NCBI GenBank assembly: GCA_022606425.2
Contig: JAHDVF020001352.1
Coordinates: 186,001 to 250,000 of the forward strand
Length of the DNA: 64,000 bases
From: Lepidostoma basale
Taxonomy: Eukaryota > Arthropoda > Insecta > Trichoptera > Lepidostomatidae
Direction: 5' to 3'
The notes under the pieces were generated by a model, which saw nothing but the letters and a program-made list of their open reading frames with translations, was not told where the DNA came from and made no database searches. Numbering within the stretch: position 1 is the first letter of the stretch; each line of letters opens with the position of its first letter. Made by a program: the position numbers and the translations under genes. This document shows positions 559 to 59,928 of the stretch, piece by piece.

Positions 559-1369
559 CTGGTACACTCATATATAATGTCATCAAGAAACTTGGTCCAA
601 AAAATTTATGTTTTAAGATTTACAACATAAAATAACATATGACTGTGGTCCAATTATGCATTTCTTATCGTTCCGTTATATTGTATGTCTCTAAAGTATT
701 GAGTTTTTAGGAGGATAATTTATATTATCTCATAAAAAAATTATTTCCGTTTTGATACGAGCAAAAGGCGTCAAACCAAGAAATATTACCGCTTAGAAAT
801 GAAAAACTGGTTTTGAGTGAATATAGGCAGGTGACTATAATGCTATTAAAAAGGGAAATAAAAATATCATAAAACCGATAACAAATTAAACAAAATATTG
901 GATATTGTCATGTTTGCTACAATGAACAGAGAGCAGATATAGTTACAGAGGTATTTAAAAATGTACGTACAATACATGTATTAGGAAATATATTGTACAT
1001 TGAGATATGTACAATACGTATTTTATAAAGTCATCAAATTAGACCGTGAATCTTTGGTACATTATAATAAAACATATGTATATAATATTAGACTGGTTAA
1101 AAAGGTCTGATCCGAAATTCTACAGTTTTCTAGTTGTTATATTACACTTTCTTTGAATAGAAATATATTAATAATAAATTGTTATCAGGGATTTGACGTC
1201 GTTTTAGATTTTTTATTTCGTTAATATTTGTACATTGTAATATTTTTTTCCACTGTGTTGAATAATGATATTAACCGCCATATTGAGTTTTTATTTCATT
1301 TTTATATTGGACAGTATTAAATAGAAAAAAATCTTAAACTATTTAATTTCAAACACTTTCTGTAAAACT
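559..1369. other. A+T-rich DNA, no gene seen
   Basis: This stretch has no open frame of note, no inverted repeat and no similarity to the repeat families elsewhere in the window. Confidence 0.6.
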
Positions 1370-1645
1370 GTGATATTATTTCAAATTCAACAGCTCTTAA
1401 TGTTGCAGTCACATAGTGTCTCTGCCGAAACAACGGCTCATCTAATCAGAAACAGTTAAGTTAAGTTGTTTGTAATATCTGATGACGCCTACGTTATGTT
1501 GGCAAAACAGCCGTCGTGATAGTTTTATAGAAATGACATGTAATTAAATAAATATATTGTGATATTATTACATTATTTCAAATTAAACAGTTCATATTGA
1601 AGAATCATAGTAAATTTTTTGCCAAAACAATTGATGATCTATAAA
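1370..1645. repeat. two diverged direct copies of a foldback family C arm
   Basis: Positions about 1370-1440 and 1567-1640 both read ATTATTTCAAATT.AACAG, then .CATAGT, then GCC.AAACAA. This matches the outer end of family C at 6320-6390. Between them, a CTGATGACGCC string near 1480 and GTCGTGAT near 1512 recall the family C core. The copy is old and heavily mutated. Confidence 0.4.
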
Positions 1646-2539: not shown

Positions 2540-2612
2540 TTGACTTTGAAGCTGGGAGTGAGCTGCCGAAGCCGGTCGAAATTAAATAACAAGTGGATTT
2601 AAATAAATAAAC
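2540..2612 (+). repeat. foldback family F, one arm
   Basis: The sequence GAGCTGCCGAAGCCGGTCGAA, shared with 31190-31215, marks the core arm of family F. The AAGTGGATTTAAATAAATA end also matches that copy. The left arm is missing, so this is a half element. Confidence 0.5.
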
Positions 2613-3734: not shown

Positions 3735-4285
3735 TCACTTTATATTTAAGAACTCGAGATTGAGATTATGTAGTTCAGTCACGTTGAATTTTTAAATGCA
3801 AATAGATACTATCTTTTTATATTAAAGAAGTTGAGATTGAGTATAGTTTAGTCACGTTATATTTAAATCCAAGTAATCGTAGATACTATAACTTCTTATT
3901 CAAGATGTTGAGATTGAGTATACTTAAGTAACGTTGAATTTAAATACAAGTAGGTATATACTATCACTTTTTATTCAAGAAGTTGAGATTGAGTATAGTT
4001 CAGTCACGTTGAATTTAAATACAGTAGATACTATCACTTTATATTCAAGATGTTGAGATTGAGTTCAGTCACGTTGACTTTAATACATTTAGTACTATCA
4101 CTTTAAATTCAAAAAGTTGAGATAGAGTTATAGTTCAGTCACGTGGAATTTAAGTACAAGTAAATACTCCCTTTTTATATTCTAGAAGTTAAGATTTAGT
4201 ATAGTTCAGTCACGTTGAATTTAAATACATTCAGTACCTACTATTCAAAAAGTTGAAATCGAGTAAAGTTCAGTTGAATTTAAAT
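3735..4285. repeat. degenerate tandem repeat, ~64-79 bp unit, about 8 copies
   Basis: A unit containing TTGAGATTGAGTATAGTTCA, GTCACGTTGAATTTAAATAC and TAGATACTATCACTTTTTAT recurs. The TTGAGATT word falls near 3756, 3831, 3908, 3983, 4053, 4117, 4189 and 4253. Spacing varies between copies because of small indels. The array starts and stops abruptly and has no coding frame. It looks like a short local satellite-type expansion. Confidence 0.85.
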
Positions 4286-5150: not shown

Positions 5151-5220
5151 AGTGAAAAATTATATATTATATAATTGAAATCTCTTGATAGAAGATCATT
5201 TTAAATAATAATTAAATAAA

Positions 5221-5306
5221 AAGATGTTTATTAAAAACAATTTCAACTCTTGTTTTTATTTCGAAAGCGACCGATTTCGCCAGGCTGTCTGATGTCGACA
5301 GACTAG
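5221..5306 (+). repeat. foldback family D, left arm
   Basis: The sequence AAGATGTTTATTAAAAACAA, then TTATTTCGAAAGCGACCGAT and TTCGCCAGGCTGTC, matches the left arms at 27983, 30691 and 36569. The right arm is absent. A family A element starts directly at the break. Confidence 0.6.
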
Positions 5307-5446
5307 TAGAAGTTTTATTATATTTTATGGGAATGACATATTTGACTTAAGTAATGACACTAGCGAAAATATAACATTTGATAATGCCTTAGCAAGGCGT
5401 AATAAGCCATTTCCATAAAATATAATAAAACTTCAAAAAACTGACG
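5307..5446. repeat. foldback family A copy
   Basis: The left arm AGAAGTTTTATTATATTTTA and the right arm TAAAATATAATAAAACTTC are inverted copies. Between them lie GGGAATGACAT and TTTGATAATGCCTTAGCAAGG, the family A core. The element abuts a truncated family D arm, so one probably inserted into or deleted part of the other. Confidence 0.75.
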
Positions 5447-6132
5447 TTGTCTTTCATATTAATTTTTTAATTTGAAGTTTTATATCAATGTTCGAGATAC
5501 AATAAATAATCATTAAATATTCTGTGTCAACATTAACACCGCACTGTGATTAATTTAAGAGTTAACGAAATATATGTTATTAAATAATGCAATGAATTAA
5601 CGATGGGACTATTAAAATAATCAGTAAAATAACGATTTAAGTCAGAATAATATTATGATGCAAAAAAGTTTATCTTTAGATGAAATAAAGATTAGCATTG
5701 TATTGCCATTTATTGGGATGTTAAAAAAATACGAGAAGACTTGAAATACGAAGAACAAACGCGAGAACTGGTGGCAAATGGTTTTCACGGGATCGGCAGG
5801 ATATCGTCCATATCTAAATTGGAAGCAGTAAAATACAGTGAGGGTTCAATTTGGGAATACGCAATTGGGCGCCGTACGCTTTATTTAGCTTCTCCATTTG
5901 GAGACCTTATCTCGGCATCTTCGCCCCCCCCCCCCCCGAATCCCGTGCCACTGTCTGGGATAATGAATTTAATTACATTTTATTTATTCCTCTTTTTGAG
6001 TGGCCTCCTTATCGATAATTTTAATTGCGCGTTTTAGCTTACATAATCACAAGTATGCAAAAGGAATCAACCAAGTTGACGGTGGAGGTTTTTGTTTTGT
6101 TGAACTCATTACAAATTATAATATCAAATGTG
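5447..6132. other. unassigned DNA with a 14-base C run
   Basis: An uninterrupted run of 14 cytosines lies at 5924-5937, inside an open frame that has no recognisable domain. That frame looks like chance. Downstream of about 6040 there is nothing clear until family C begins. Confidence 0.5.
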
Positions 6133-6350
6133 ATTATAAACTGTTGATTAAAAAAACTTTGTTTAATGTATCACATTGCATTTTATTTTTCGGGACAGCT
6201 GTTTCGTCAACCTATGCTGACATCATCAGGTGTTACAATAATATTGTAACACCTGATGATGTTAACATAGATTGATGAAATAGCTGTCGCGAAACATAAA
6301 AATACAAGTGTGATACATAAAACAAAGTTTTTTATTTAACAGTTTATAAT
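6133..6350. repeat. foldback family C, complete hairpin
   Basis: Two arms of about 106 bp are inverted copies around a 3-base centre at 6239-6241. From the centre outward each arm reads ATTGTAACACCTGATGATGT, then a small hairpin, GAAAC or GAAAT, AGCTGTC, then A+T-rich sequence ending ACAGTTTATAAT. There is no open frame. Each arm carries a hammerhead-like core, so each strand has one. Confidence 0.85.
6194..6229 (-). ncRNA. hammerhead-ribozyme-like core (family C, left arm)
   Basis: On the minus strand CTGATGA (6223-6229) is followed by one U and the stem GUCAGC / GUUGAC with an AUAG loop. Then come GAAAC (6201-6205), AGCU and GUC (6194-6196). These are the invariant core words of a hammerhead ribozyme, with a very short palindromic helix III. 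One extra base lies between CTGATGA and the stem compared with the textbook core. Activity is not shown. Confidence 0.55.
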
Positions 6351-6420
6351 GTTAAAGTATCATAGTGTTTCGGCCAAAACAATGGACTATAAAATGTGAT
6401 TCTTTGACTGGTTTTAAATT

Positions 6421-6612: not shown

Positions 6613-6820
6613 AACTGTGTTTAGCATTCTTCTATAAACTATATTTATACAATATATAAAACATAAATATAAGTTAGAAAATGGTTTTCACCTTGCGAAG
6701 GAAACCTTCAACTATTCTGTAATTAAAAACACTCGAAACATCATACTACAATGACAATCTCATAAAAACCAATAAATGAATTCTGATCCGTGTAATTACA
6801 GTGTTCGATAATTAAAATAT

Positions 6821-6925
6821 TAATACGAATGAAAACGTCAGTTTTCTAGAAGTTTTATTATATTTTATGGGAACGACATGTTTCGCCCTTCTAAGGCATT
6901 ATCAAACATTTGATAATGCCTTAAA
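6821..6925 (+). repeat. foldback family A, left arm and centre
   Basis: It begins ATTAATACGAATGAAAACG, then TTTTCTAGAAGTTTTATTAT, then ACATGTTTCGCCCTTCTAAG and GGCATTATCAAA. The centre TTTGATAATGCC is present but the right arm is lost after 6925. Confidence 0.75.
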
Positions 6926-7029
6926 TTCCTTGGCATATAGAATGGAATAATACTCCTGGCGGCTTCTAACAATACGTTAAATAGGCGACAGCCTTCGCAT
7001 TGTGTTAATAAGGTAGTTTGCTAAATGCC

Positions 7030-8656: not shown

Positions 8657-9161
8657 TTATAATCAGTTTTCTATAAAATTAAAGTTGATTATTATGGGGA
8701 AGTTTAGAAATAATTATCAATCTACTGATGATTATTATTAATTAAAAACTCTACACATCATATTAAGCTTTTAAACTTTAGTACGTACCTTGGCGCGAAA
8801 ACAAAAATTTGACACGAAATTGATTGAACTGTGTTCATATTTTATTTTATAATACTAATTTCACGAATATATTGACATTTCCCTGTACAAGAACGTCCAG
8901 CGTGTTAGTAAAATTTGCTCTAGCGAACGATTTGAATAAAAACGAGCTGAAATATGTGAGATGTCATAAGTGTTAATTTTATTTCACACGCGAACTTAAA
9001 AATCCCCGCATTATAAGTACATGTGTTAACAGCGTAATATAATTTATCTTAATTATTGATAAGTTTTAAGATCACTGTATGCATCAAAATTAATTAATTT
9101 AAATAAACTTAAAGTTGTTAACCCATTATGTTGTTTTATTAATTAAAACAAAAGAACGGAA
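8657..9161. other. A+T-rich DNA, no gene seen
   Basis: I find no repeat family member and no convincing open frame. Confidence 0.55.
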
Positions 9162-9590
9162 AGGCAAAAGAAGGATGAAAGTAGAATAAATGCAGTAGAA
9201 ATGAGATCTCTAAGACGAATGTGTGGCAAATTTGTATATGATAGAGTGACCAACGTAAGTATAAGAAGTGAATGTGGTGCAAATGAAAGTGTTATGAACA
9301 AAATAAGGAAAGGGTCATTAAGATGGTTTGGACACATGAAAAGAATGAGTGAAGACAGAATGGTAAAGAAGGTATATGTAAACGGCGTGAACGGAGCTAG
9401 AAATAGAGGAAGGCCGAGGAAAACGTTGCACGATCAAATCAATCAAATATTGAATGTCGGTCACGTGAGGAATCGGAGAAATCGACGTGCGTGCATGACA
9501 AGATGTATAAATGTAGAGGAAGCGAGAGAAGTATGTCAGGACAGAACAGTGTGGCGTTCCATTCTTTCTGCCTACCCCTCCGCGCAGAGA
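9162..9590 (+). pseudogene. LINE-A, 5'-truncated copy with open C-terminal frame
   Basis: Codons run from QKKDESRINAVEMRSLRRMC through RWFGHMKRMSEDRMVKKVYV, GRPRKTLHDQINQIL, RNRRNRRACMTRCINVEEA and CQDRTVWRSILSAYPS. This is the region after the reverse-transcriptase thumb in an RTE-like non-LTR element. The frame is intact over ~140 codons but lacks the endonuclease and polymerase domains. The usual end (GETA, stop, GTTA tail) is replaced by a GA-rich sequence, so the frame runs on to 9677. Confidence 0.8.
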
Positions 9591-10537
9591 AAAATAACGC
9601 AACAGAGGAAACAATTGTGTTTTAATAAAAAATATTATATGCTAGTATTAACGTCATTATTGTTGCACGAAAAATAATGTAAAATTCTATTTTGTTCTAA
9701 ATAATTCATTGGAGAGAAACAGTTTTTTTAATAAGTTTCATTCAATTTTATTTTATGTAAATTTCATTTTACTAAGTCATTTTCGAAAGTTTTTTTGTAA
9801 TTGTGAAGGTGTCTTAGCAAACTTTTGATAATGCTTTAACAAGGTGAAACATTTAATAAGAAGTTTTCAATCAGTGTTTAAGATAAAGTTAATCCATTTT
9901 AAGTATTTAATATTGGTAAGAATCACTTTTTTAGTTTTGTGAATGGTAGTGACATGGTTTGTATTACTATGGTATTATCAGATGCCAATTAAGGACATTT
10001 TTTTCCATAAAGTATAAAATACTTAAATTTACGTTTTTGTAAATACAACTACAATTCAGTATTGTATTTAGTATAGAACTAGTGAGTTATAATAGCATAC
10101 ATATTGTTTTTCAAGAAATCCATTAATTATGCTCGTTCGAATTTGCAAAATAATTTATAACAAGAAGCTAAATCGAATAAATTCATACGTTGAATATTAA
10201 TCAATGTCCAATTGCATATTAAACATATTTGAAAGTGAAATTACTGATAAATTGAGTGAAACCAGAAGATCGATACAATTTGTTCTTGGCCTTTCTCTTT
10301 GCAAATAATATACTGGATGGTTTCGACTTATTTGAAAAAATATATAGTCCTCTATTTCTTAATTACATTAAATTCAAATTCTACAATATTACTTTTGTAA
10401 GCATAGTATATCTAGAGGAATAAAAATTGTATGTTATATTTTATGCATTCAAATCAATTGGTTATGGACCTAGTTCATTTAGCAAAACTGATAGTAATTA
10501 AAAATACAGATATACTTAAGGCGTTAAGACTGTGGAA
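9591..10537. other. A+T-rich DNA with a possible family A relic
   Basis: Near 9820-9865 ACTTTTGATAATGCTTTAAC followed by AAGGTGAAACAT recalls the centre and right arm of family A. The rest shows nothing identifiable. Confidence 0.4.
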
Positions 10538-10720
10538 TTCCATAATGACGAATTTTTATGAATTAAAACACTGTTTTTTCCCCTTTTAGTTTATTTTTCT
10601 CGACTTGTTTCGAAGGCTTACACCTTCAACATCGTGGCAGCCTTCGAAACATGTCGAGAAAAAAAAACTCAAAAGTGGAAAAAACAGTGCTTTAAATCAT
10701 AAAAATTCGTCACTTATAAT
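10538..10720. repeat. foldback family B copy
   Basis: The left arm runs from ATTCCATAATGACGAATTTT through TTATTTTTCTCGACTTGTTT to CGAAGGC. The right arm is its inverse, GCCTTCGAAACATGTCGAG to AAAATTCGTCACTTATAAT. The centre has lost a clear CTGATGA word, so the ribozyme-like core is decayed here. Confidence 0.8.
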
Positions 10721-12668: not shown

Positions 12669-13975
12669 ATAATATGCGTTTTTTAATAATAATTATTTAT
12701 CTCCTTTGTATTGAATATAAAAACAACTTATTTATAATTATGGTTAAAAAATTCACTGAAGAAGGATGTCGGCCATTCGAAATACACGTTTTTTTTAATA
12801 AATATATTTTCTTAATTTACAGGTTTTCTAGTATACTTACACCAATGTTGTATTTCATTATTATTGTTTTAATGAATTGAAACAAATATTTCTACTTTTG
12901 AGTTTACTTTTTTCGGTGCGTTAATATACCCACACCTTCATCACCATTTAAAATATAACATATAAGATAAATATTGCATTATTTCGTAAAAAAACTAAAC
13001 TTTATAAGTTGTGTTTTGATTATATTAAAATATACATTTACATAAAAAGTGAAGGTAAACTTTAATGAAAATCATGATATGATTTGAGGATATTACGCAA
13101 CAACATTAACATTAATCAACACTATTGATATCCTTCTAACTGCAAAATGTCATCAACTTCGCATTAATATAATTAGCGCGGACACCGAGAGCTCAACATC
13201 CTACCAATATGAACTAAATTCCCTCGCTTACACCTGGCGAGTTAATAGCTTCGATCCACAGCCTTCAGGTGCAATTTATCATTCTCTAAGAATAGTTGTT
13301 TCTACGCAATACTCCGACCGGCGAGCGCGCTATTAGTATCCAAACGGTCTGGTAAACCACCCGCGAAAGATACGCCCGAGGCCCATCGTGTCATCTGGTT
13401 CGCTCTTTGATCGTATTAACTCGTTAAAGTATGGGCCCTGCAGCAACCCATAATAAGGGCTACCGTGCGATTACATATTGCAACACCGTGTTGATTTGCC
13501 CCAGGGAAGGGCGTAATGGTAATATGTTATAAGCATGCTCACATACCTGGTGTTCTTTATTTGAATAAGATAATGAAAAGGAGGGTATTATAAAGGATGC
13601 ATTCATTGCAATAAATACATTCATTACATCATAAAGATGAATCTTGTTGTTTTCTCTAATGCATCTTTAATGCTTTATGATGCATATAATGATTATTACT
13701 TGGACTTGGATCTTCTGGCTTACAGAGGTTCAGCTCATGTGGCTATTCCTCTTACGTCTGATTGGAACATTGTTGGAAGGTGATTTGGTGGGTTGTTAGT
13801 TTATTCGGGGGCATGATTTGTGTGGCCCGGAGTGTTCCTCTGAAGGAGACAGTCATTATAAATACACTCTTAGTATAGCTAATTACATATTCATTTATGA
13901 ATCGCTTTGCGTAAAATATGCTAAAATCATTTCAGCATGTTTATTAAATGAATTAACTGGATGATTTTTTTAAAA
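12669..13975. other. A+T-rich flanks with a GC-richer single-copy island at 13140-13540
   Basis: The island includes ACCGAGAGCTCAACATCC, CCGACCGGCGAGCGCGC and GGGCCCTGCAGCAACCC. It has no open frame of note and no internal repeats. A weak hairpin (CATTACATCATAAAG with CTTTATGATGCATATAATG) lies at 13620-13690. The island is a candidate regulatory element only because it differs in composition and is not repeated here. Confidence 0.35.
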
Positions 13976-14180
13976 TAATTAAGACACTGTTTTTTTTCAT
14001 TAATGAGTTTATTTTTCTCGACATGTTTCGAAAGCTTTACACTTTTACCATCGGAAGAACGATATAAACTAGAATATATAACGTTCTCCCGATGATGCCT
14101 TCGAAACATGCCCAGAAAAATAAACTCAAGTGGAAGAAACAGTGTTTTAATTCATAAAAAAATTCGTCATTGTGGAATTC
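13976..14180. repeat. foldback family B copy
   Basis: The left arm reads GAGTTTATTTTTCTCGACAT, then GTTTCGAAAGC. The right arm reads GCCTTCGAAACATGCCCAGA, then AAAATAAACTC and ACAGTGTTTTAATTCAT. The centre CCCGATGATGCC is a decayed CTGATGA core. Confidence 0.75.
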
Positions 14181-16077: not shown

Positions 16078-17399
16078 CGAGGTCTGTTCAAAAAGTATCG
16101 CGAATTTTGAATTTCCGCTGGCTACGTATATTTGATTTTTGATTTTTTTGTAGCGTTATGTTGGTACTCATGTCCCTTACTTATGCTGACAAGGTCGGTC
16201 ATTTTGAATGTTTAGTTAATTTTTGACAGCTGTTTTGCTTGGATGTGTTTTGGCTCGTCTTCGATTTTTGCCTATTCCAAAAAATGGATCAAAGAATCTG
16301 TATCAAATTTTGTGTGAAAAACAAAATAAAGTGCGCGGACGCATTTCAAATGTTGACTGTGGCATATGGTGAAGCTACCTTGGACCAAAGCAACGTTTAT
16401 CGGTGGTACAAAATGTTCTCAGAGGGCCGAGAAGATATGAACGACGAAGAGCGTGCCGGACGCCCGAGCACGTCAACAACAGACGAAAACATTGATAAAG
16501 TGAAGAAAATAGTATTAGCCAATCGTCGAATCACCGTTAGAGAAGTTGCTGAGGACCTAAACATATCGATTGGCTCGTGCCATTCGATTTTAACCAATGA
16601 TTTGGGCATGAGTCGGGTCGCCGCGAAATTCGTGCCAAAATTGCTCAATTTCGACCAAAAACAGCATCGCGTTAACATTGCTCAGGAGATGTTGGACTCG
16701 GTCCGTGATGACCCAAATGTGCTCCAGAGGGTCATAACTGGTGACGAATCATGGGTTTATGGTTATGACGTGGAAACCAAAGCTCAATCATCCCAATGGA
16801 AGCTGCCGCATGAGCCAAGACCAAAAAAAGCGCGCCAAGTTCGGTCGAACGTGAAGGTTTTGCTCACAGTTTTCTTCGATTGCAGGGGCGTGGTGCATCA
16901 TGAGTTCTTGCCACAGGGTAGTACGGTCAATAAGGAATATTACCTGCAAGTTATGCGCAATTTGCGCGAAGCAATCCGCCAGAAACGCCTGGATTTGTGG
17001 AAGAACAAAAACTGGCTTTTGCACCATGATAACGCCCCTGCTCACACATCGTTGCTTGTGCGCGAATATTTGGCCAAAAACAACACAGTAATGGTGCCGC
17101 AGCCACCGTATTCCCCAGACCTGGCCCCCTGTGACTTTTTCCTGTTTCCAAAACTGAAGAGGCCCATGAAAGGACGACGCTACGCCACGATTGAGGAGAT
17201 AAAGACGGCATCGAAGGAGGAGCTGAACAAGATCACAAAAAATGATTTTTTTAAGTGCTTCGAGGATTGGAAAAAACGTTGGCATAAATGTATTATATCC
17301 GAGGGGAATTACTTTGAAGTGGACAAAATTGATATTCATGAATAAATAAATGCTTTTTGAAAAAATATAAAATTCGCGATACTTTTTGAACAGACCTCG
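16078..17399 (+). mobile_element. full-length mariner transposon
   Basis: The element is 1322 bp. The first 31 bp (16078-16108, starting CGAGGTCTGTTCAAAAAGTA) and the last 31 bp (17369-17399) are exact inverted copies. A TA lies on each side (16076-16077 and 17400-17401), the expected Tc1/mariner duplication. It encodes one uninterrupted transposase on the plus strand. The identical ends and open frame suggest a fairly recent insertion. It lies inside LINE-D. Confidence 0.96.
16284..17345 (+). CDS. mariner transposase (DD34D), intact
   Basis: This 353-residue protein should catalyse cut-and-paste transposition by binding the 31-bp ends and inserting at TA. An N-terminal helix-turn-helix region (about residues 1-105) contains EATLDQSNVYRWYKMFSEGR. 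A KFVPKLL string near 115-121 matches the WVPHEL linker motif of mariners. The catalytic residues are visible: D154 in TGDESWVYGYD, D249 in HHDNAPAH and D284 in APCDFFLFPKLK. There are 34 residues between the last two, the mariner signature. YSPDLAP is at 276-282. An upstream in-frame ATG at 16239 would add 15 residues. I prefer 16284 because it has an A at -3 and gives the usual mariner length. No stop or frameshift is seen, so it may be functional. Genome annotation pipelines often label such proteins SETMAR-like. Confidence 0.95.
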   Translation: MDQRICIKFCVKNKIKCADAFQMLTVAYGEATLDQSNVYRWYKMFSEGREDMNDEERAGRPSTSTTDENIDKVKKIVLANRRITVREVAEDLNISIGSCHSILTNDLGMSRVAAKFVPKLLNFDQKQHRVNIAQEMLDSVRDDPNVLQRVITGDESWVYGYDVETKAQSSQWKLPHEPRPKKARQVRSNVKVLLTVFFDCRGVVHHEFLPQGSTVNKEYYLQVMRNLREAIRQKRLDLWKNKNWLLHHDNAPAHTSLLVREYLAKNNTVMVPQPPYSPDLAPCDFFLFPKLKRPMKGRRYATIEEIKTASKEELNKITKNDFFKCFEDWKKRWHKCIISEGNYFEVDKIDIHE

Positions 17400-19339: not shown

Positions 19340-19665
19340 TGAAGGAAGAAAGTAGAATAAATGCAGTAGAAATGAGATCTCTTAGACGAATGTGTGAATA
19401 CTCTGTGTATGATAGAGTGTCGAATGAAAATGTAAGAAGTGAATGCGGTGCAAATGATGGTGTTATGATTAAAATAATGAAATGATAATTAAGACTGTAT
19501 GGACAAATGGAAATAATGAATGAAGAAATAATGGTAGAAAACATTATTTGTTAACGATGTAAATGGAACCAGATATAGAGGAAGACCGAGGAAAACGTGG
19601 CACGATCAAATAAATCAAATATTGAATGTCGGCCATGTGAGGAGTCTAGATAGGAGGAGAGATAT
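19340..19665 (+). pseudogene. LINE-A, truncated copy
   Basis: It starts KEESRINAVEMRSLRRMC and carries YDRVSNENVRSECGANDG. Later come the codons of NGTRYRGRPRKTWHDQINQI and NVGHVRS. A stop after IKIMK and a one-base shift break it. The last ~60 codons and the tail are missing; family C sequence begins at once. Confidence 0.75.
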
Positions 19666-19810
19666 ATTATTGTAACACCTGATGATGTCAACATAGGTTG
19701 ATGAAACAGCTGTCGCGTAAAATAAAATACAATTGTGATACAAAAAACGAAGTCATTTAATTAAACAGTTTAAAATGTTAAAGTATCATAGTGTTTCGAC
19801 CAAAATAATG
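19666..19810 (+). repeat. foldback family C, right arm
   Basis: It matches 6242-6390 closely, including TTGTAACACCTGATGATGT, CAACATAGGTTGATGAAAC, AGCTGTCGCG and GTTAAAGTATCATAGTGTTT. The other arm is absent. Confidence 0.8.
19679..19714 (+). ncRNA. hammerhead-ribozyme-like core (family C)
   Basis: CTGATGA occupies 19679-19685. One U follows, then the stem GUCAAC (19687-19692) / GUUGAU (19697-19702) with loop AUAG. GAAAC is at 19703-19707, AGCU at 19708-19711 and GUC at 19712-19714. All invariant core words are intact. Helix III would be the palindrome ACAGCUGU, too short to loop alone, as described for minimal hammerheads that act as dimers. The extra U before helix II is non-standard. Confidence 0.6.
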
Positions 19811-19844
19811 GACTATTTAAATAAATTAAAACTATATATTGTTT

Positions 19845-22637: not shown

Positions 22638-23363
22638 CAATAGAACGTCGTTTATCAGGACGTCAGTTAACCGGAACGTCAAAAATCCGGACAAGCCAAG
22701 ATGATGAAGCGCAAAAAAGACTAGGAAATCTTAATTAATACGAATGAAAACGTCAGTTTTCTAGAAGTTTTATTATATTTTATAGGAGTGACATGTTTCG
22801 CCCTTCAAAGGCATTATCAAATGTGACGAAACTTCAACTCGTTGCAGTTTATATACAATAGTAAATGGATCAGAATATGGTAATTATCGAAAATTGATGT
22901 GACTTTATACATTTTTAACAAATAATTATTTGGGTAGGTCAAGAAATATTAGAAGTGTTTCTTGGAACTCGTTAAGAAATTTTATGACAATAGTTGCATG
23001 GTTAGAGGATACAAAATGATATTATATAAATCAAAAAAAAGTTATTTGAGGTGGACAAAATATTTTTTGTTAAGTTATTTAATATGGAGTTTTACATCAT
23101 TGTTCAAGAAACTAGTTAAAATCTTGTTAAAAAAAATCTCTGATTATTTTACCAATACTGTAGAGTAATGTGAGCCTTTTGATGTACACACATACTTGTT
23201 TTTGCAGTAAAATTTTCAATTTCATAGCCAATAATTGAGCCGAGGAAAAAAAATCGATTTACACAATATTTCTGTAAAATAATTAGCGCCCGTTTGATTA
23301 TCCAGAAAAATCGGTATCCGAAATACCTCCTGTCCCAATTAGTCTGGATACGACGTTCTACTG
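22638..23363. mobile_element. non-autonomous pogo-like element
   Basis: The left end reads CAATAGAACGTCGTTTATCA, then GGACGTCAGTTAACCGGAAC. The reverse complement of the right end reads CAGTAGAACGTCGTATCCAG. These match each other and the general pogo/Tigger terminus. A TA follows the right end, but the left flank is TT, so the duplication is not confirmed. No transposase frame is inside. A family A half element lies at 22738-22825. Confidence 0.55.
22738..22825 (+). repeat. foldback family A, left arm
   Basis: AATACGAATGAAAACGTCAG, then TTTTCTAGAAGTTTTATTAT and GTGACATGTTTCGCCCTTCA. It lies inside the pogo-like element and is therefore probably younger than it. Confidence 0.75.
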
Positions 23364-24630: not shown

Positions 24631-26077
24631 GTGCCCGGATTTCGCGAAAGTCATTATTTGAATTTTGGCGTTCTACCCCGTTCAAATGCAAATTAAACGA
24701 AGTTATAACGTTTGCAAAGTCAAGATTTGTTAATTTTGTCCTCAAACAAGATCAAGAGAAGCCCTTAAAGATATTTCTGAAAAGGGAATGCGAAAAGATT
24801 CGTTCGAAATGGCTTCGTAAAAATAGACAATTACATTTATTTTTAAGTGCACACTAGGATTGGTTAAATGATGAAATTGTATTTAATATGTTTTACGAAC
24901 CGCTCCCGAAACCAAATCCCAGTGTTGGCAGATCGAAAAAGCGTTTTGAAGATAGTTGCACTAAATCGAAACAGCGCAAAGTTCAGCATTTATTGGAAGA
25001 ATATAACGATGCACAGCTATCTTTTGGTGCACAATTAAGTGTGCGAGGCAGTAGTAAACGAGACGCTGCTAATTTAATACAGGAAGTGTCTACAGCTTCG
25101 CCAAGACGAGCTACCGAGTATAAAAAAGCTAGAAGAAGAATTACCATAAACAAAGAACAACGTCCTTACACCCCGGAGGAAGCGTTGGCTTTATTTGTTG
25201 CAAACAATTTCACTGTGCAGATGTACAAAAATATTCAACAAGAGTCGAATGAAAGAGGATTCCGTCTATACCCATGTTACGATCATTTAGTTAAAGTGAA
25301 AGAGCAGAGTTACCCTCCCGTCGAAAAACTAAAAAAACGTCGAATTCAACCACAATCGTAAGAGAACCTGATGAAAACATGTACAGCTTTGGGATATCAA
25401 GCTTGCATGCTTATATCCGCACAATAGAATGCCTGCTAAATATTACTTATAGAATGGAAATAGCTGAGTGGCAAGTTAGGGGAGAGAAAAATAAAGAAAA
25501 TTTTAAAAAGAAGAAGGATATGATAAAAGGTCAATTCAAAGAAGTTGGTCTCATTATAGACAAAATTAAACCAGGTTTTGGTACAAGTAACGATGGCAAC
25601 ACCGTAAGAGCGTTTTTTCACAATTATAAAACAACGGCTCGTATCACCGGTATTGAAGAAATTTTTATTTATCGTCTCAGTACTATTCTTGCAGCAATGG
25701 CGTCTGGCTATTAAATTGACTCTGATAAATTTAAACAATATTGTTTGGAAACTCGGGACTTATATCTTACTCTGTACCCATGGTATAACATGCCAGATAC
25801 ATTACATAAGATCCTGGTACATGGAGCAGAAATTATAAGACATTCTATCATACCAATAGGTCAAATGTCCGAAGAGGCTTCTGAGACAAAAAACAAAGAA
25901 ATTAGGAAGGTAAGATTAGGTCACACATTAAAAACATCTCGTGTACGCACAAACTATGACTTAATTAAGTATTTATTAATGTCGTCCGATCCATACATTT
26001 CACTGTTGCGGAAACTACAAAAAAAGAATACAATAAAACATTATACAGATTTAAAATCATTGTTAAAGTCAAATTAA
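24631..26077 (+). pseudogene. Transib transposase, inactivated by stops and an internal deletion
   Basis: The frame may begin after a splice-acceptor-like run (TTTTTTTATTTATAG) ending at 24630. The N-terminal part reads FVLKQDQEKPLKIFLKRECE, then hits an in-frame TAG (24855-24857). It continues in frame as DWLNDEIVFN and KPNPSVGRSKKRFEDSCTKS to a TAA at 25359-25361. A second frame takes over at about 25355 with REPDENMYSFGISSLHAYIR, WQVRGEKNKENFKKKK and KPGFGTSNDGNTVRAFF. It hits a TAA at 25712-25714 and runs on in frame through LYPWYNMPDTLHKILVHGAE to 26077. The H-x4-H-x2-EII string matches the zinc-binding HKTLAHVPEII region of RAG1. SEEASETKNK aligns with the RAG1 segment holding the third catalytic acid (Glu962). 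The usual middle section with the two catalytic aspartates is not found between the two frames and appears deleted. Confidence 0.88.
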
Positions 26078-27835: not shown

Positions 27836-27982
27836 TGCGACTGTTGTTGAAAAAATAAATTATTTTTAATTAGTTTTTACGTCAAACAATTGTTGTTTAT
27901 GACAAAATAAAATATTTTTAGAAATAATATTTTTTTTTAAATGTGATTTTACAACATGCATTTTCATATAATAATTAAATAT

Positions 27983-28115
27983 AACGATGTTTTTTTAATA
28001 TACAATTACTTCCACATTTGTCTTTATTTCTGGCCAGTCTGTCGTTGCCAGTGAGCTTGGCGAAATCGGTCGCTGAAGACAAACGTGGAAGTAGTAATAA
28101 AAAAAAACATCGTTT
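27983..28115. repeat. foldback family D copy
   Basis: The ends AACGATGTTTTTTTAATA and TAATAAAAAAAAACATCGTT are inverted. Within are ACTTCCACATTTGTCTTTAT and its inverse GACAAACGTGGAAGTAG. The core reads GAGCTTGGCGAAATCGGTCG, a decayed GAAAC..GTC motif. Confidence 0.8.
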
Positions 28116-28799
28116 TATTTCATTATTATTTAAAATAAACATCCATCTATAGATTTCAGTTCAATCATTTGATTATAGAAACTAATAGAAACACACCTTT
28201 GCAAATGTTCCTAAACTCAAGTTATAAATAAATAATCTTTGGATGAATGAGATAACGGTTTAATTTTTAAGTTAAAATGGAGTGATATTAAAATAAAAAG
28301 AAACTGAAATAGTGAAAAATACCAGTACAGATTAGTGCGGGTATTGGACATGGCAGATACAGAAAATGGGAACGATATGATTGACACACACGTCTGAACA
28401 GTTAGAGAAAAAACGGAATTATTTTTTGTCCCCAACACAAAAGGTTTCAGCGGAATCTCCGTAACAAAACCGAGTTAATTTTCTATGAATAAAAAAACGC
28501 GGAGATCTTCTAGCCGAATCAAAATGGTCGACAGGCGCTGCGCACACTTCTGTCTTGGGGGTATTGACAATGGCATGGAGCCAATTCCATTAATGATAAA
28601 TTATTTGGCGATTCAACAGTCACGTGCATGGCTCAAGTGCCACAAAAAGTTTAACGAGAAAAGTGACGGCAATTATACTCCAGAATCTCGGATCAGAGAC
28701 GTGGCTGAGACCAAAAAGATTCACTTGTCAACGACACAGGGTTTTTTTATTATTATTTTTTGAAACATGGATAATATTAACGTTTTTTCATATTAAATA
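28116..28799. other. unassigned DNA with two chance-level open frames
   Basis: Open stretches at 28217-28438 (minus) and 28485-28763 (plus) have no recognisable motif. Base composition over 28300-28740 is a little richer in G+C. I see no repeat family member. Confidence 0.4.
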
Positions 28800-28980
28800 A
28801 ATATTTTTCAACTTTAAGGCTTATTTTTAAAAGGTTTCTAAGGTTTCAAACCTTCATCATAGAGAGAACATAATAATTAATATTGTTCTGATGACGAAGG
28901 TGTAAAACCTTCGAAACATGTCGAAAAAAATAAATAACATTGTGTGAATTCAAAACAAATTCATCATTATGGAATTCATA
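28800..28980. repeat. foldback family B copy
   Basis: The left arm reads AAGGTTTCTAAGGTTTCAAA, then CCTTCATCAT. The right arm reads ATGACGAAGGTGTAAAACCT, then TCGAAACATGTCG and the outer GTGTGAATTCAAAACAAATT. The left arm is more eroded than the right. Confidence 0.75.
28888..28922 (+). ncRNA. hammerhead-ribozyme-like core (family B)
   Basis: CTGATGA is at 28888-28894. One C follows, then the stem GAAGG (28896-28900) / CCUUC (28908-28912) with loop UGUAAAA. GAAAC is at 28913-28917, AU, then GUC at 28920-28922. The core words are intact and helix III would be the palindrome ACAUGU. As in family C, one base is extra before helix II. Confidence 0.55.
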
Positions 28981-29033
28981 TTGTTTACGATTTATGTTTA
29001 TAAATAAACGGAACATTTGACTAAAACATGAGC

Positions 29034-29800: not shown

Positions 29801-30690
29801 AATGTAAACTAATAAGTAATCCATTTTAGCAGTTATAGAACTATTCTATTTATAAAAAATATTTACGACTTAGTATAAGACAAAAAATCTCCATTCTAGT
29901 TACTGCATCGAAGCAAAAATGATGTAATTTAATTTAATTCTTTTTTTTAATGTCCTTTATTATCTAAGTAAATATAATGTGCAAATGCTACAAAGTTATT
30001 ACAATTGGTTTGAAAAATACAAGTATAATACATAACATAGCATACCAGTAGTTATGCGGAGGTCATTAGTTCAAATTACATTGCTTCCGACAGCTCTAAA
30101 CTAGAATTGTTTCAAGGAAACAGCGTGTAAAATATTGTTGTATAGAAACAAAAGCGGATTTATAAATAACGCAAAGGCACCAATTGGTAAGAAAAATCTC
30201 AATTTAATTGGTGGACAAAAATGTTGAAAAACGATTCGTTTGAAATTACACATTAAAGTTAGATGTAGCGTCTTTTGAGGTTAGTAGGAATAATCCATAG
30301 CGCTCGTGTGTACGTGAATACTGATACCAGAAGTGCTGGTCACACTGCAGATTGGAAACCGAGTTGACCGAACCAAAAATAAAGTGATTCGAGACGAGAA
30401 ATACTCCCAGAATAAGAATACCGGGAAGCCGGCATTGCTTCACGAGTGTACCACCCCGACAATGGACGGCGAATAAAGGAAATCGTAATAAAATTTAGAA
30501 AGAACGTTCTCAACCTCGACTAGTTGGATCCATTTCATGGTTCATTCAGCGATTGACAACGGGGCAGGGGAGAGCAACCAAAGGTTCTGACTCAATATAA
30601 TTTCATTCATATAACAATACACCTGTCATTACCGTGAAAACAGTAATATTTTTTTATCGAACCTTGACAAACAAAAATAATTTAAAATAA
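29801..30690. other. unassigned DNA
   Basis: The stretch 30250-30580 is less A+T rich and carries a 65-codon minus-strand open frame without a recognisable domain. No repeat family member was seen. Confidence 0.4.
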
Positions 30691-30811
30691 AACGATGTTT
30701 TTTTTTTTACTATTTCTACTTTGTGTTTATTTCGAAAGCAGCCGGTTTCATCAACAAACTTGTCGCTGTCGAAATAAAGACAAAAGTGGAAGAAGTTAAA
30801 AGACATCGTTT
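30691..30811. repeat. foldback family D copy
   Basis: The ends AACGATGTTTTTTTTTTTAC and AGTTAAAAGACATCGTT are inverted. The core has TTTATTTCGAAAGCAGCCGG and TTTCATCAACAA. Its minus-strand reading GATGAAACCGGCTGC is a decayed GAAAC..GTC motif. Confidence 0.8.
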
Positions 30812-31090
30812 TTTTTAATGATTATTTTAAATGAACTTTCAACAAAAGATTTCAATAAAATCATTTGACTATCCTAAAAACGCCATTGAAATACGATGCT
30901 TGAATAGAGTTAATAATCACTATACACTAAAGAAAAAGATGGAGTAAAAGTAAGCGATCGAAAATAAAAAAGTTCAAATCTTTATGAAATAAAAAACTAA
31001 CTGAATGAAATTTGTTTTATTTGAAATTTCTTGGTAGAAGATCATTGTAACTAAGGAAAATGTAAAAAAATAATTATAAATTCCATTAAA

Positions 31091-31250
31091 ATAAATATTG
31101 AGTTTAATTCCACTTGGTTGTATGGCTGCGACCGGTTTCGGCAGCAGCTCGCTACCTAATCTTTTAGTGAGGCTATACCAGAAGATGGCAGCGAGCTGCC
31201 GAAACTGGTCGAAGACACAAACATTAGTGGATTTTAAATAAATATTCATA
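31091..31250. repeat. foldback family F copy
   Basis: The left arm reads TTTAATTCCACTTGGTTGTA, then CGACCGGTTTCGGCAGC. The right arm reads GAGCTGCCGAAACTGGTCGA, then TTAGTGGATTTTAAATAAA. On the plus strand CAGAAGATGGCAGCGAGCTG precedes CCGAAACTGGTC. This is a hammerhead-like order in which the second base of CTGANGA has changed to A. Confidence 0.75.
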
Positions 31251-31287
31251 TTAACAATATTTTTTACAACAAAAAAAAAACATTTTG

Positions 31288-36341: not shown

Positions 36342-36568
36342 TACAGTACTGCTAAGGTATTATCAAATATGATACATAAGTATAGTGTAAAAGTATGCAA
36401 AATGTGTCACCCCTAAAAATAAAATTAATTCAAGAAAACTGACATTTTCAATATTTGATAGATCGCCAACATTCGGACGAAGTACATAATACATGCATGG
36501 TTAAACTAAATTGAACGATTTTACTGAAATCCTTGAACTTAAGTTAATTTTAAATATTAATTAAAAAT

Positions 36569-36760
36569 ACATGTTTTTTAATAACTATAATACATCCACT
36601 CTTGTATTTTTTCAACAAAGACCGATTGCGCCAGGCTGGCTCACATCGACAGACTGCGACTGAGACTAGTTGACAAGTCTGTCAATGCTGGACAGCTTGG
36701 TGAAACCGATCACTATCGAAATAAAGGTAAAAATGGAAGTAGTTATTAAAAAAACATTGT
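36569..36760. repeat. foldback family D copy
   Basis: ATGTTTTTTAATAACTATAA, then TACATCCACTCTTGTATTTT on the left. AGGTAAAAATGGAAGTAG and TTATTAAAAAAACATTGTTT on the right are the inverse. On the plus strand CTGGACAGCTTGGTGAAACC, then GATC, retains GAAAC. Confidence 0.75.
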
Positions 36761-37416
36761 TTAATTTAATTATCATGGTTTAAAATGAAAAAATTAACGC
36801 TTAACACTTCAATACTATTTTGGTCACAAACATGTGAAACAAAAGCTAAGAATTTGATATTAAAAATACCTGTTTATCTATCATCTACGGAGCCGTCCGG
36901 GTCTCCACACACCTCCCGTCTCACACACTTATGCAAATGCACTCTTTCAATTAATTTGATTCGTTTAAGGAGCGTTCGATTTAAATTGATGGCAGTAGGC
37001 GTTCTCGCCGCATAAAATTTTATAGCCCAGAAAATAAAACAGAATCCGAATCTTCATTCTGGTATTATCAGCCGTGCGAATTGGTCCGTCGCGAAAAAAC
37101 TCATCCATTTTTTCTCCACACACAAGGTACTAGATTTATTTTTCTAATCGCATTTTAATGCAAATCAAATTTATGTATATCGAGCGTTACATATTAATTA
37201 CGTTTTTATAGAGAAATTCTGTAGAAAAAAATAATTATATAACAGTACAAAATACCCGAGTTGTTTAATTAATTTTAAAATTGTCAACCTTGTGTGGGAT
37301 ACTATAGATCGATCTACAGATAGTATTAAAAAACAGTTTTAACCGATGTAAGGTTAATTTATTGGCAACAAAAAGAGTCATAATAAATAACCAATGCTTT
37401 AGTATTAATTATATTA
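36761..37416. other. unassigned DNA with GC-richer stretch at 36890-37120
   Basis: The stretch contains TACGGAGCCGTCCGGGTCTC and ACTTATGCAAATGC. The latter is a perfect octamer-type word (TATGCAAAT), which POU proteins bind, but one site proves nothing. No frame was identified. Confidence 0.35.
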
Positions 37417-37592
37417 ATTAATACGAATGAATACGTTCGTTTTTTTTTAGAAATTTCATTTTATTTTATTGGAATGTCATGTTTTGCCTGTCTAAGGTAT
37501 TATCAAATGTCCTTGATATTTGAAAATGCCATAGACAGGTGAAACATGTCATTCTCATAAATTATATTAAAACTTTTAGAAAACAAAAGTCA
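37417..37592. repeat. foldback family A copy
   Basis: ATTAATACGAATGAATACG and TTTTATTGGAATGTCATGTT on the left. GGTGAAACATGTCATTCTCA, TAAAACTTTTAGAAAAC on the right. The centre has TTGATATTTGAAAATGCC. Confidence 0.75.
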
Positions 37593-44392: not shown

Positions 44393-44424
44393 CAGACGAT
44401 CCTCCGGTGGGAGCGAAACCGGTA
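44393..44424 (+). ncRNA. isolated hammerhead-like core, decayed
   Basis: CAGACGA (44393-44399; consensus CTGANGA with the second base changed), then a CTCC/GGAG hairpin with loop GGTG. GAAAC (44415-44419), CG and GTA (44422-44424) follow. The order and spacing fit the cores of families B-F. The arms around it do not match those families. The U4 change would be expected to kill catalysis. Confidence 0.35.
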
Positions 44425-46176: not shown

Positions 46177-46293
46177 TATTATATAAAAAATATATCTCAT
46201 CAATATTATTATAGTTACAATGAAATTAATTTTGTTTTGGCCAAAATAATGGATCAACAATAAAATTGTTACTTACTGCATTAATAATTATTT

Positions 46294-46449
46294 AATTAAT
46301 ACGAATACAAACGCTGTTTTCTAGAAGATTTATCATAATTTATGGGAATGACTATGTCGTTATAATGGAATGACATGAAAGGCGAAACATGTTATTCCAT
46401 TATAATATAATAAAACTTCTAGAAAACGGCTGTTTTCATTCGAATTGAT
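46294..46449. repeat. foldback family A copy
   Basis: ATTAATACGAATACAAACGC, then TGTTTTCTAGAAGATTTATC. The right arm is GGCGAAACATGTTATTCCAT, AATAAAACTTCTAGAAAACG and TTTTCATTCGAATTGAT. GTC has become GTT. The centre of the element is shortened. Confidence 0.8.
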
Positions 46450-46493
46450 AAAAATATTAGTGGCGTGTTTTCTTTAAAGTATATATTTTAAGT

Positions 46494-47750: not shown

Positions 47751-48137
47751 CTAAAGTAAAAAATAGTATTCCTAAGTAATGAAAATTACAAATTGTTATT
47801 ATAAATATATTTTATCATATTATAATTAAAAGGTCCATTTAGAATATTTAGCGTTCGGCATTTGAAATTAAAACACCGGAAGGTCTAATTTTGTACATAA
47901 TTTTTTTTGTTGATAAATCTATACAAAAAGTTAAATAAACGGTTCATTTCATCCAGCTGAGTTGCAGGTGAACGTTTACTAATTTAAATGTTTACTATTA
48001 AGAAGGTAAGAACACCTGAGCTATTGAAAATGTGTTCCAAAACTCGTTAATGAGATAACCGACCTAGGTGTTTCGCAGTTTCTAATAATATGTAATTATA
48101 ATTGTATTGCAAGTAGTTAAATAAAATGCATTATATC
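47751..48137. other. A+T-rich DNA, no gene seen
   Basis: No frame or repeat was identified. Confidence 0.5.
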
Positions 48138-48334
48138 AATTCATATGAATGAAAACGTCTGTCTTCTAGGAGTTTTATTATATTTAAGATGGAATAAAAA
48201 GGTTTCACCCTTCTAAGACATTATCAAACGTCCATCAAATTACATTTAATAATGCCTTAGAAGGGCAAAATATGTCATTCCATCTCAAATATAATAAAAC
48301 TCATAAGAGACAGACGCTTTAATTCATATTAATT
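48138..48334. repeat. foldback family A, near-complete copy
   Basis: ATTCATATGAATGAAAACGT, then CTGTCTTCTAGGAGTTTTAT and ATTTAAGATGGAATAAAAAG. The right arm ATGTCATTCCATCTCAAATA, ATAATAAAACTCATAAGAGA and CAGACGCTTTAATTCATATT is its inverse. The outer TTATTTAATATGGAGTTGTA also follows. The centre has TTTAATAATGCCTTAGAAGG. Confidence 0.85.
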
Positions 48335-48412
48335 ATTTAATATGGAGTTGTACAAGACATAATAAATAAAGTGTATTGTATTATTATAAAAAGTAATATA
48401 TAAAATATATCC

Positions 48413-49370: not shown

Positions 49371-49690
49371 GGAATACAAGGGAATCCATTTCAAATAAAT
49401 ACAAGGGAATCCATTACAAAGAAATACCAGGGAATCCATTACAAATCAATACAAGGGAATCCATTACAAAGCAATACAAGGGAATCCATTACTAAGAAAT
49501 ACAAAAGAATCCATTATAAAGTAATACAAGGGAATCCATTACAAAGAAATACAAGGGAATCCATAACAAAGAAAAACACGAGAATCCATTACAAAGAAAT
49601 ACAAGGGAATCCATTACAAAGAAAAACACGAGAATCCATTACAAAGAAATACAAGGGAATCCATTACAAAGACATGCGAAGGTATCCAGG
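49371..49690. repeat. 25-bp minisatellite, about 13 units
   Basis: The unit contains AATACAAGGGAATCCATTAC plus AAAGA. The GGAATCC word (AGAATCC in three units) recurs at exact 25-base steps from 49381 to 49656, with a decayed last unit at 49681. Units at 49581 and 49631 share the variant AAAAACACGAGAATCC and alternate with standard units, so the last part grew as 50-bp dimers. Because 25 is not a multiple of three and no unit has a stop, two long frames run through it. I regard these as artefacts. Confidence 0.95.
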
Positions 49691-51066: not shown

Positions 51067-51185
51067 TCTTTTAATTATATTTTTAGTTTATTAAAATGGG
51101 TATTATATCATACAGTTTTATAAAATGTTTAAATCTGAAACACTGTTATTATACATATCACAATTTATTTTTAAGATATTTTCGC

Positions 51186-51221
51186 GACAGCTGTTTCGCT
51201 AACCTATGTTGGCATCTTCAG
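51186..51221 (-). ncRNA. hammerhead-ribozyme-like core (family C)
   Basis: On the minus strand CTGAAGA (51215-51221) fits CTGANGA. A stem GCCAAC/GUUAGC with one mismatch and an AUAG loop follows. Then come GAAAC (51193-51197), AGCU and GUC (51186-51188). The core words are intact. Confidence 0.55.
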
Positions 51222-51249
51222 GTGTAACAAGTTGTTTGTTATTGTAAAT

Positions 51250-59402: not shown

Positions 59403-59405
59403 AGA

Positions 59406-59757
59406 ATTTCAATATTATATTGAATGCCTCAAGTTTACCAAAAAATAATTCCCAATAATTAATAATGCCATTACCACAGATAAAGATACAGTAAACAATT
59501 GATAATAATAAAAATAAAAATTATTGCTTGAACAATGGTGTAAAACTCTATAATTTCGAGAAACTTTATATTCATTTTACGTGTTTTATGATAATTACCT
59601 AGCAAAACAAAATACGTTGCTCCCATAAAATTTGAAAGCGGGCATATTTATCAACATTAAATGTGTGATTATAGATCATAATAAAAATAGTCAAAATTCA
59701 TGAACCCTTGTTTTATTTGTTGATACTTGAACAACGATGTAAAATTCCATATTAAAT
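59406..59757. other. A+T-rich DNA
   Basis: Outer family A words (TTGCTTGAACAATGGTGTAA, AACTCTATAATTTC) occur at 59523-59556 and again just before 59758. Nothing else was seen. Confidence 0.45.
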
Positions 59758-59928
59758 AATTATTATAAATGAAATTTTTTATTTACTAGAAGTTTCATTA
59801 TATTTTATGGGTATGAGATGTTTTGCGTTGCTTACGAAAATAATTAGATATTGCCTCAGCAAGACGAAACATGTCATTCACATAAAATATAATGAAAATT
59901 TTAGAAAATAGAAGTTTTCATTCATATA
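59758..59928. repeat. foldback family A copy
   Basis: TATAAATGAAATTTTTTATT, TACTAGAAGTTTCATTATAT and TTTATGGGTATGAGATGTTT on the left. AAGACGAAACATGTCATTCA, TAAAATATAATGAAAATTTT and GTTTTCATTCATATA on the right. GAAAC..GTC is intact but the CTGANGA position reads TTAGATA. Confidence 0.8.

Follow-up and report, generated by a model that had tools for sequence, protein, structure and literature searches.

Introduction

Minimal type I hammerhead ribozymes of Penelope-like elements (PLEs) were reportedly described by Cervera and De la Pena in 2014, and by Lunse, Weinberg and Breaker in 2017. In the accessible parts of two accounts, PLE hammerheads are type I ribozymes with almost no helix III, which likely act as dimers, lie in pseudo-LTRs and are dispersed in thousands of copies (PMC7761336, PMC6155905), whilst a third, also available in part, counts inverted pseudo-LTRs among the features of PLEs, along with short 3' extensions (PMC8969392). 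The Anolis PLE PAc combines an ORF for a reverse transcriptase (RT) and a GIY-YIG endonuclease with a hammerhead in its leader; its protein cuts and extends both target strands, starting inside the RNA, and the "tail" is the stretch between two internal start sites. Uncut RNA is the main substrate for its insertion, and the hammerhead is protein-assisted (PMC11167929). Departures from the invariant core are also on record: the accessible portion of one study reports U3/A8 in several natural hammerheads and cites such a pair as active in vitro, and describes a natural A6C hammerhead as slow (PMC3088659).

Here we consider a 64-kb stretch of DNA (the window), which forms part of an assembly of 768.8 Mb in 1,572 contigs, has a GC content of 33% and is rich in repeats throughout. 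A first-pass annotation had picked out hammerhead-like cores in small elements with inverted arms, and had likened them to PLEs. We hold it highly probable that PLEs left these cores behind, as minimal type I hammerheads in short leader (pseudo-LTR) insertions; judged by sequence, the repeats of the window would best be read as no new class of foldback.

Results

Hammerhead cores in the window and the genome

The hammerhead-like words lie where they had been placed, exact at 19679-19714 (+) and 6194-6229 (-), and with one mismatch in helix II at 51186-51221 (-). Because of this mismatch the last core is skipped by our strict descriptor (CTGANGA, zero or one extra base, a helix II of at least 4 bp, GAAA, H17 and a helix III that can pair in part with itself). 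The descriptor finds three cores in the window (6194, 19679 and 28888), where 100 shuffles that preserve dinucleotides yield 0.03 on average and never more than 1; this control, for which the first-pass annotation had called, helps to dismiss chance for the main copies. With one mismatch allowed in CTGANGA there are four matches, as opposed to 0.55 on average and at most 3 in the shuffles. Genome-wide, the pattern CTGANGAN{10,17}GAAACNNGTC (CTGANGA..GAAAC..GTC) has 16,278 exact matches (8,219 + 8,059), as opposed to 8 (3 + 5) for the reversed pattern. This count and the covariation of helix II bear out the proposal that several families have a strand-specific core in common.

The hoped-for Rfam match did not materialise: a scan with the Rfam covariance models turned up no hammerhead family in the 64-kb window (E <= 10), nor in the PLE loci L070, L048, L062 and L068 (E <= 5), likely because helix III is missing and a base is inserted. 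A match to Rfam MIR6438 at 6194-6288 was dismissed, with 33 bits against a gathering threshold of 58; foldback hairpins of the PLE loci also attract other weak Rfam miRNA matches. A home-made covariance model, trained on 16 aligned cores (15 of them distinct) drawn from several families, finds 35 window sites at E <= 10. The best five belong to its training set, nine others have E < 0.1, and among the weak sites, with E near 1 or higher, some are chance matches. The copies of the window are listed in Table 1.

Table 1. Hammerhead-bearing copies and related features of the window (distances are counted from the predicted cut)
Feature	Position	Strand	Details
Family A arm	19664..19816	+	Core 19679-19714; predicted cut after 19714, then leader
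PLE-type 3' tail of this arm	~19777-19816	+	Ends ..CCAAAATAATGGACTA
Family A foldback	6133..6389	.	Tailless minus arm 6133-6244 (core 6194-6229, -)
Tailed plus arm of this foldback	6238-6389	+	Decayed core 6253-6288
Likely target-site duplication of this foldback	6126..6135 (left), 6392-6401 (right)		AAATGTGATT
Family A arm	51156..51230	-	Core 51186-51221; likeness fades early on 3' side
Family B arm	28870..29010	+	Exact core 28888-28922; extra base C; helix III ACATGT
Family B foldback	10542..10717	.	Decayed core 10599-10635 (-), E 0.0092; weak core 10612-10658 (+), E 0.48
Family B foldback	13964..14163	.	Decayed core 14017-14054 (-), E 0.0032; weak core 14089-14115 (+), E 0.39
Family E foldback	31086..31254	.	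Core 31179-31213 (+, CAGAAGA); weak core 31127-31157 (-)
Family E core copy	2546..2580	+	Home-made covariance model, E 0.081
PLE5 pseudo-LTR fragment	5176..5308	-	84% identity to ORF-bearing PLE5; core 5266-5301, E 0.55
PLE5 pseudo-LTR foldback	27959..28176	.	Core 28039-28074 (+); arms end at +69 and +108
PLE5 foldback	30673..30872	.	Arms end at +62 and +108
PLE5 foldback	36514..36789	.	Arms end at +101 and +71
Family F copy	6810..6930	-	U3-A8 core TTGATAA 6875-6905
Family F copy	22734..22821	-	U3-A8 core 22790-22820
Family F foldback	48130..48341	.	Arms 48139-48229 (-) and 48245-48341 (+)
Family F foldback	37407..37584	.	
Family F foldback	59751..59927	.	
Family F foldback	46285..46459	.	
Further hammerhead-like site	1479..1518	+	E 0.011
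Further hammerhead-like site	12756-12793	+	E 0.11
Further hammerhead-like site	44393-44427	+	E 0.014

Other repeats share the window. An open frame of 372 aa at 16227-17345 (+) has mariner-type transposase domains (Transposase_1, 2.6e-18, and HTH_48). An abundant repeat family at 9147-9677 (+) and 58658-59428 (-), with many partial copies, carries a frame with GRPRKTWHDQINQIL..VWRSILSAYP, which we take to be LINE-like; Pfam has no match in the two frames of this family that were scanned, and its likeness stops at 19646, just before the family A arm at 19664. Three open frames in series at 24858-26077 (+), of 167, 139 and 120 aa, lack Pfam matches and are possibly one transposon protein with frameshifts, and some dozen tandem units of 25 bases (49373-49688) lie within an open frame.

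Helix II, an inserted base and a short helix III

In the alignment of 16 cores (15 distinct), four of the five pairs of helix II are changed on both sides, and 93.3% of cells are paired. The covariation score is 0.903 against 0.266 +/- 0.058 in shuffles, none of 500 scoring as high, and it drops to 0.20 and 0.29 when the partners are slid by one base.

One constant base in excess of the textbook core had been remarked before helix II, and it is real and nearly constant. In the register test, on 99 of 100 genomic C3-G8 rows among the matches listed, a 4-bp helix II with exactly one base after A9 is found in 75 of 97 testable rows, as against 0 of 98 with no extra base and 2 of 96 with two; the textbook arrangement, helix II directly after A9, is not that of these cores, and the doubt about catalysis that the first-pass annotation had drawn from the insert stands. 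As the extra base is A in 55, T in 42 and C in 2 of the same 99 rows, it is in most copies no partner of G12. The U3-A8 rows (58 among the matches listed) have the one-base register in 36 cases and the zero-base register in none, and 22, about a third, are without a 4-bp helix II. We found no published description of such a constant insert in a literature covered to a limited extent and partly in excerpt, which is not proof of absence.

Helix III is chiefly ACATGT, with ACAGCTGT, ACCGGT and ACTAGT also in use and some copies non-palindromic; in most copies it is short, self-complementary and able to pair in trans. When two RNAs were cofolded, a dimeric hammerhead was the minimum-energy fold for two of the five window copies tried, and another fold was preferred for three. 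A hammerhead core with a minimal helix III, as first proposed, is well supported by the descriptor, the genome counts, the register of helix II and its covariation.

A compensated 3-8 pair in the majority of copies

Families F, E and PLE5 (the name used here for the ORF-bearing family described below) depart from the invariant core by U3-A8, U4A and A6U, respectively, the last giving CTGTCGA. This change at A6 counts against our reading; a natural A6C hammerhead is described as slow (PMC3088659). Under one and the same genome pattern, the U3-A8 core (22,657 exact copies; reversed-pattern control, 47) outnumbers C3-G8 (16,278; 8), whilst the single changes C3-A8 (1,240; 10) and U3-G8 (1,435; 38) stayed rare; it is the compensated form that was amplified, its copies exceeding those of either single change by a factor of 16-18. 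A Watson-Crick 3-8 pair is kept in 38,935 of the 41,610 copies under the four patterns (94%), copies that are related and do not represent independent events. At least two unlike stem families, GCCTT..AGGGC and GGTTAC..GTAACC, carry the double change; given this and the relatedness of the copies, few founder events may underlie the counts. Taken together with the cofolds and the copy starts described below, the counts suggest that selection has likely acted on the hammerhead core.

These counts qualify the earlier description of some cores as decayed. It holds for cores in the family A and B foldbacks, but not for TTGATAA of family F, which is mostly the compensated U3-A8 core; decay as its whole account is ruled out by the excess of the double change over either single one.

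The link to Penelope-like elements

A genome search for GIY-YIG (PF01541), in which 150 of 541 candidates were scored, gave at least 62 matches, and in 18 of the 30 loci examined the match has a hammerhead-like core no more than 500 bases away. In locus L062 a 758-aa open frame with RVT_1 (1.4e-13) and GIY-YIG (6.6e-5) is flanked by inverted pseudo-LTRs (934-1551 versus 4443-3810, 95.4% identity) with cores at 1160-1192 (-) and 4169-4201 (+); its family is PLE5. The GIY-YIG match of L048 has inverted cores on its two sides, from a different stem family. In L070 a canonical core, CTGAGGA, comes some 40 nt downstream of a frame whose GIY-YIG match is partial (21.5 bits, below the cut-off of 22.6), and the preceding frame has a weak RVT_1 match (16.2 bits, below 29.6). 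The early comparison with PLEs was the right one.

No ORF-bearing parent came to light for families A, B, E and F, which we tentatively place among the PLEs by the tail signature of family A, by arms that are joined head-to-head and by the core that they share. Two of the 30 GIY-YIG loci look bacterial: L031 (region L065, G000:C102, UvrC by Pfam and dense long frames) and L033 (region L066, G000:C729, dense long frames only); the assembly seems to contain bacterial contigs, from a symbiont or a contaminant.

Many foldbacks pair a tailed with a tailless arm

In many PLE5 copies the sequence past the hammerhead cut stops at about +61 or about +105, with BLAST ends, accurate to a few bases, falling mainly 60-71 and 101-110 bases past the cut. 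We classified head-to-head PLE5 pairs with both arms at a known end, duplicates removed (pairs such as L051 were left out), and all 12 consist of one tailed and one tailless arm. Their outer flanks share 12-14 bases in nine of the 12 pairs; L039 shares 9 bases, L061 shares 4, and L062 lies within an AT repeat and is uninformative. Random stretches share 4.2-5.9 bases on average, with maxima of 7-13, and of 27 in two repeat-rich loci. By their BLAST ends, the three PLE5 foldbacks of the window obey the same tail rule (Table 1). Joints are often in or near the hammerhead in short pairs; symmetric joints as a rule were dismissed, as most long PLE5 pairs have asymmetric ones (L069 excepted).

Family A follows suit. 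Its copies stop sharply at ..GGACTA, some 101 nt past the cut, and of the nine partner arms that end within the stretch examined, five do so at +61 or +62 and the rest at +24, +68, +77 and +101. Among 13 hand-picked pairs (partner matches in L003, L014, L017 and L025 were left out), seven, that of the window included, share at least 9 flank bases and six share fewer; for L016 and L006, 7 and 2 of 60 random stretches reached the flank length observed. In the window's family A foldback (6133-6389) each arm starts at -50, one stops at +62 and the other at +101, and the whole is flanked by a 10-bp repeat, with none of 60 random stretches sharing 10 bases or more (p = 0.007 from 400 random flank pairs). 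It looks like one insertion, made of two head-to-head arms, tailed and tailless, between short direct repeats. It is the only foldback of the window with a clear flank repeat: the family F foldback at 48130 gave p = 0.035, and 13 of the 15 window foldbacks, copies that are more diverged and have uncertain ends, were not significant.

A pseudo-LTR, 5' truncation and an optional tail of 30-40 nt at one end are thus found in PLE5, in family A and in the window's own foldback. The elements had been described as small foldbacks with inverted arms: inverted they are, but their setting is that of PLE leader (pseudo-LTR) insertions, two copies of one arm head-to-head. The 45-nt tail of PLE5 (in L062, past the tailless end near 4262) contains ATGAACTTCCATCAAGAG.., and the family A tail ends CAATGGACTA; since the start sites of the Anolis PLE lie within its ORF, these tails may mark where an ORF begins.

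Inserted copies run past the predicted cut

The best 40 genome copies of the family A arm at 19664 are 93-100% identical to it over 144-157 bases. For the 5' ends we used a tail-only query and 37 of the best 40 copies (C1506, C532 and C1494 were left out), a sample that, like the other family A samples, favours young copies, because only the best 40 were scored, and to which copies truncated inside the tail do not belong. Not one of the 37 starts at the predicted cut (0 to -2); the starts of 26 fall in the range -56 to -3, and the other 11 begin upstream of it. For PLE5, 78 BLAST hits extend past the cut, of which four start at -2 and none at -1 or 0. These four are the two arms of one short palindrome (L042, 761-853), seen again in the overlapping locus L071.

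Since no sampled family A copy begins at the cut, the template for insertion was read past it, which points to a step for the hammerhead other than the making of the inserted template. This hints that the RNA used for insertion is mostly uncut, and we infer that cleavage is no prior step in the production of these copies. That it takes place in a dimer, or with a protein to assist, is plausible. The idea that the short arms come from RNA whose 5' end is sharply set at the edge of the hammerhead was also considered, and was abandoned because the starts seen with the tail-only query are scattered; the earlier sample that had suggested it was biased, its query having begun at that edge.

Discussion

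The simplest reading of a foldback is a single staggered cut, both 3' ends of which are extended and the resulting cDNAs joined head-to-head. We propose that the PLE protein would make this cut in AT-rich DNA, and that both 3' ends could then prime reverse transcription within the leader, on separate RNAs and each at one of two sites, about 61 or about 101-108 nt past the hammerhead cut. The two cDNAs would be joined at their truncated 5' ends to yield the foldback. As the inserted copies read through the cleavage site, the hammerhead would be put to use at a step outside template making, acting as a dimer with helix III paired in trans, and perhaps aided by the PLE protein.

Could the foldbacks instead be non-autonomous DNA transposons of the foldback or MITE kind, with the core merely a part of their terminal inverted repeats? 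We judge this very improbable: inverted arms, sharp outer ends and flank repeats of 9-14 bases would suit it, but the arms end unequally in all 12 classified PLE5 pairs and in the foldback at 6133-6389, single arms and ragged 5' ends are common, the inner ends are often unlike between arms, and the relative that carries an ORF codes for RT and GIY-YIG. Being small, non-coding and furnished with type I hammerheads, the elements also bring to mind animal non-LTR retrozymes, spread as circular RNAs that the hammerhead excises, and one tandem triple of identical U3-A8 cores at 269-base spacing (G000:C1:1464007-1464575, -) is of the sort that they would leave. Yet of 15 pairs less than 200 bases apart, judged by eye among the matches listed, 12 are head-to-head, two tail-to-tail and one on the same strand, and the absence of the cut from the starts of all 37 family A copies likewise speaks against excision; such an origin is improbable. 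As for chance matches of a short motif in AT-rich repeats, to which some of the weak sites of the home-made model can be put down, the probability is negligible in view of three cores against 0.03 in shuffles, genome counts of 16,278 against 8 and 22,657 against 47, and the covariation of helix II.

A subtler alternative is that the fold is kept for something other than cleavage, its self-complementary helices II and III allowing cDNAs of the same sense to anneal and be joined head-to-head. By eye, the centre of the foldback lies inside helix II in four of 20 small stretches (L074, L078, L080 and L081), and it is at the 5' edge of the hammerhead in L006, L010 and the window's foldback at 6133-6389. 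Centres outside the hammerhead are common in long PLE5 pairs, however, the 3-8 pair is kept though it serves the catalytic core and not annealing, and a later deletion at the tip of the palindrome would look alike; we therefore think this unlikely, if a better candidate than the preceding ones. Rather doubtful, and the most speculative part of our own reading, is the idea that the majority form is a re-coded hammerhead, with a U-A 3-8 pair and an insert, whose fold is kept for a protein-assisted step outside template making, perhaps the release of RNA or the joining of cDNAs. Were it true, searches with the CUGANGA consensus would miss more than half of the hammerheads of this genome.

Whichever step the ribozyme serves, a single genome offers a record of past insertions, in which 94% of 41,610 copies have a Watson-Crick 3-8 pair and none of 37 starts at the cut. 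The pairing of tailed with tailless arms between shared flanks provides genomic support for priming on both strands, as seen in vitro (PMC11167929), and the U3-A8 majority, along with the absence of Rfam matches, suggests that such motifs are under-counted in animals. Together, these counts, the regular pairing of arms and the lack of copies that start at the cut bring a question about these ribozymes within reach of a test.

How, then, do these elements compare with those described? With the Anolis PAc they have in common the RT/GIY-YIG ORF, the leader hammerhead, two internal start sites that bound a tail and, probably, priming on both target strands and insertion chiefly from uncut RNA; tandem repeats are the arrangement described for PAc, whereas inverted head-to-head pairs prevail in the loci examined here. 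The animal non-LTR retrozymes, as portrayed in the accessible part of PMC7229834, are likewise small and non-coding with type I hammerheads, some acting as dimers, but occur as tandem repeats with circular RNAs, while the elements here are mostly inverted pairs and solo arms. The U3/A8 variants in the available portion of PMC3088659 have the same compensated 3-8 pair, rare there as against 22,657 exact copies here. Closest of all are the minimal type I hammerheads of PLEs, which, in partial and second-hand descriptions, have the same architecture, tiny helix III, likely dimeric action, pseudo-LTR setting and wide dispersal, and from which the near-constant one-base insert and the U3-A8 majority set the present copies apart. 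It is to this known kind that the elements belong, the insert and U3-A8 being variations, each of a kind already on record.
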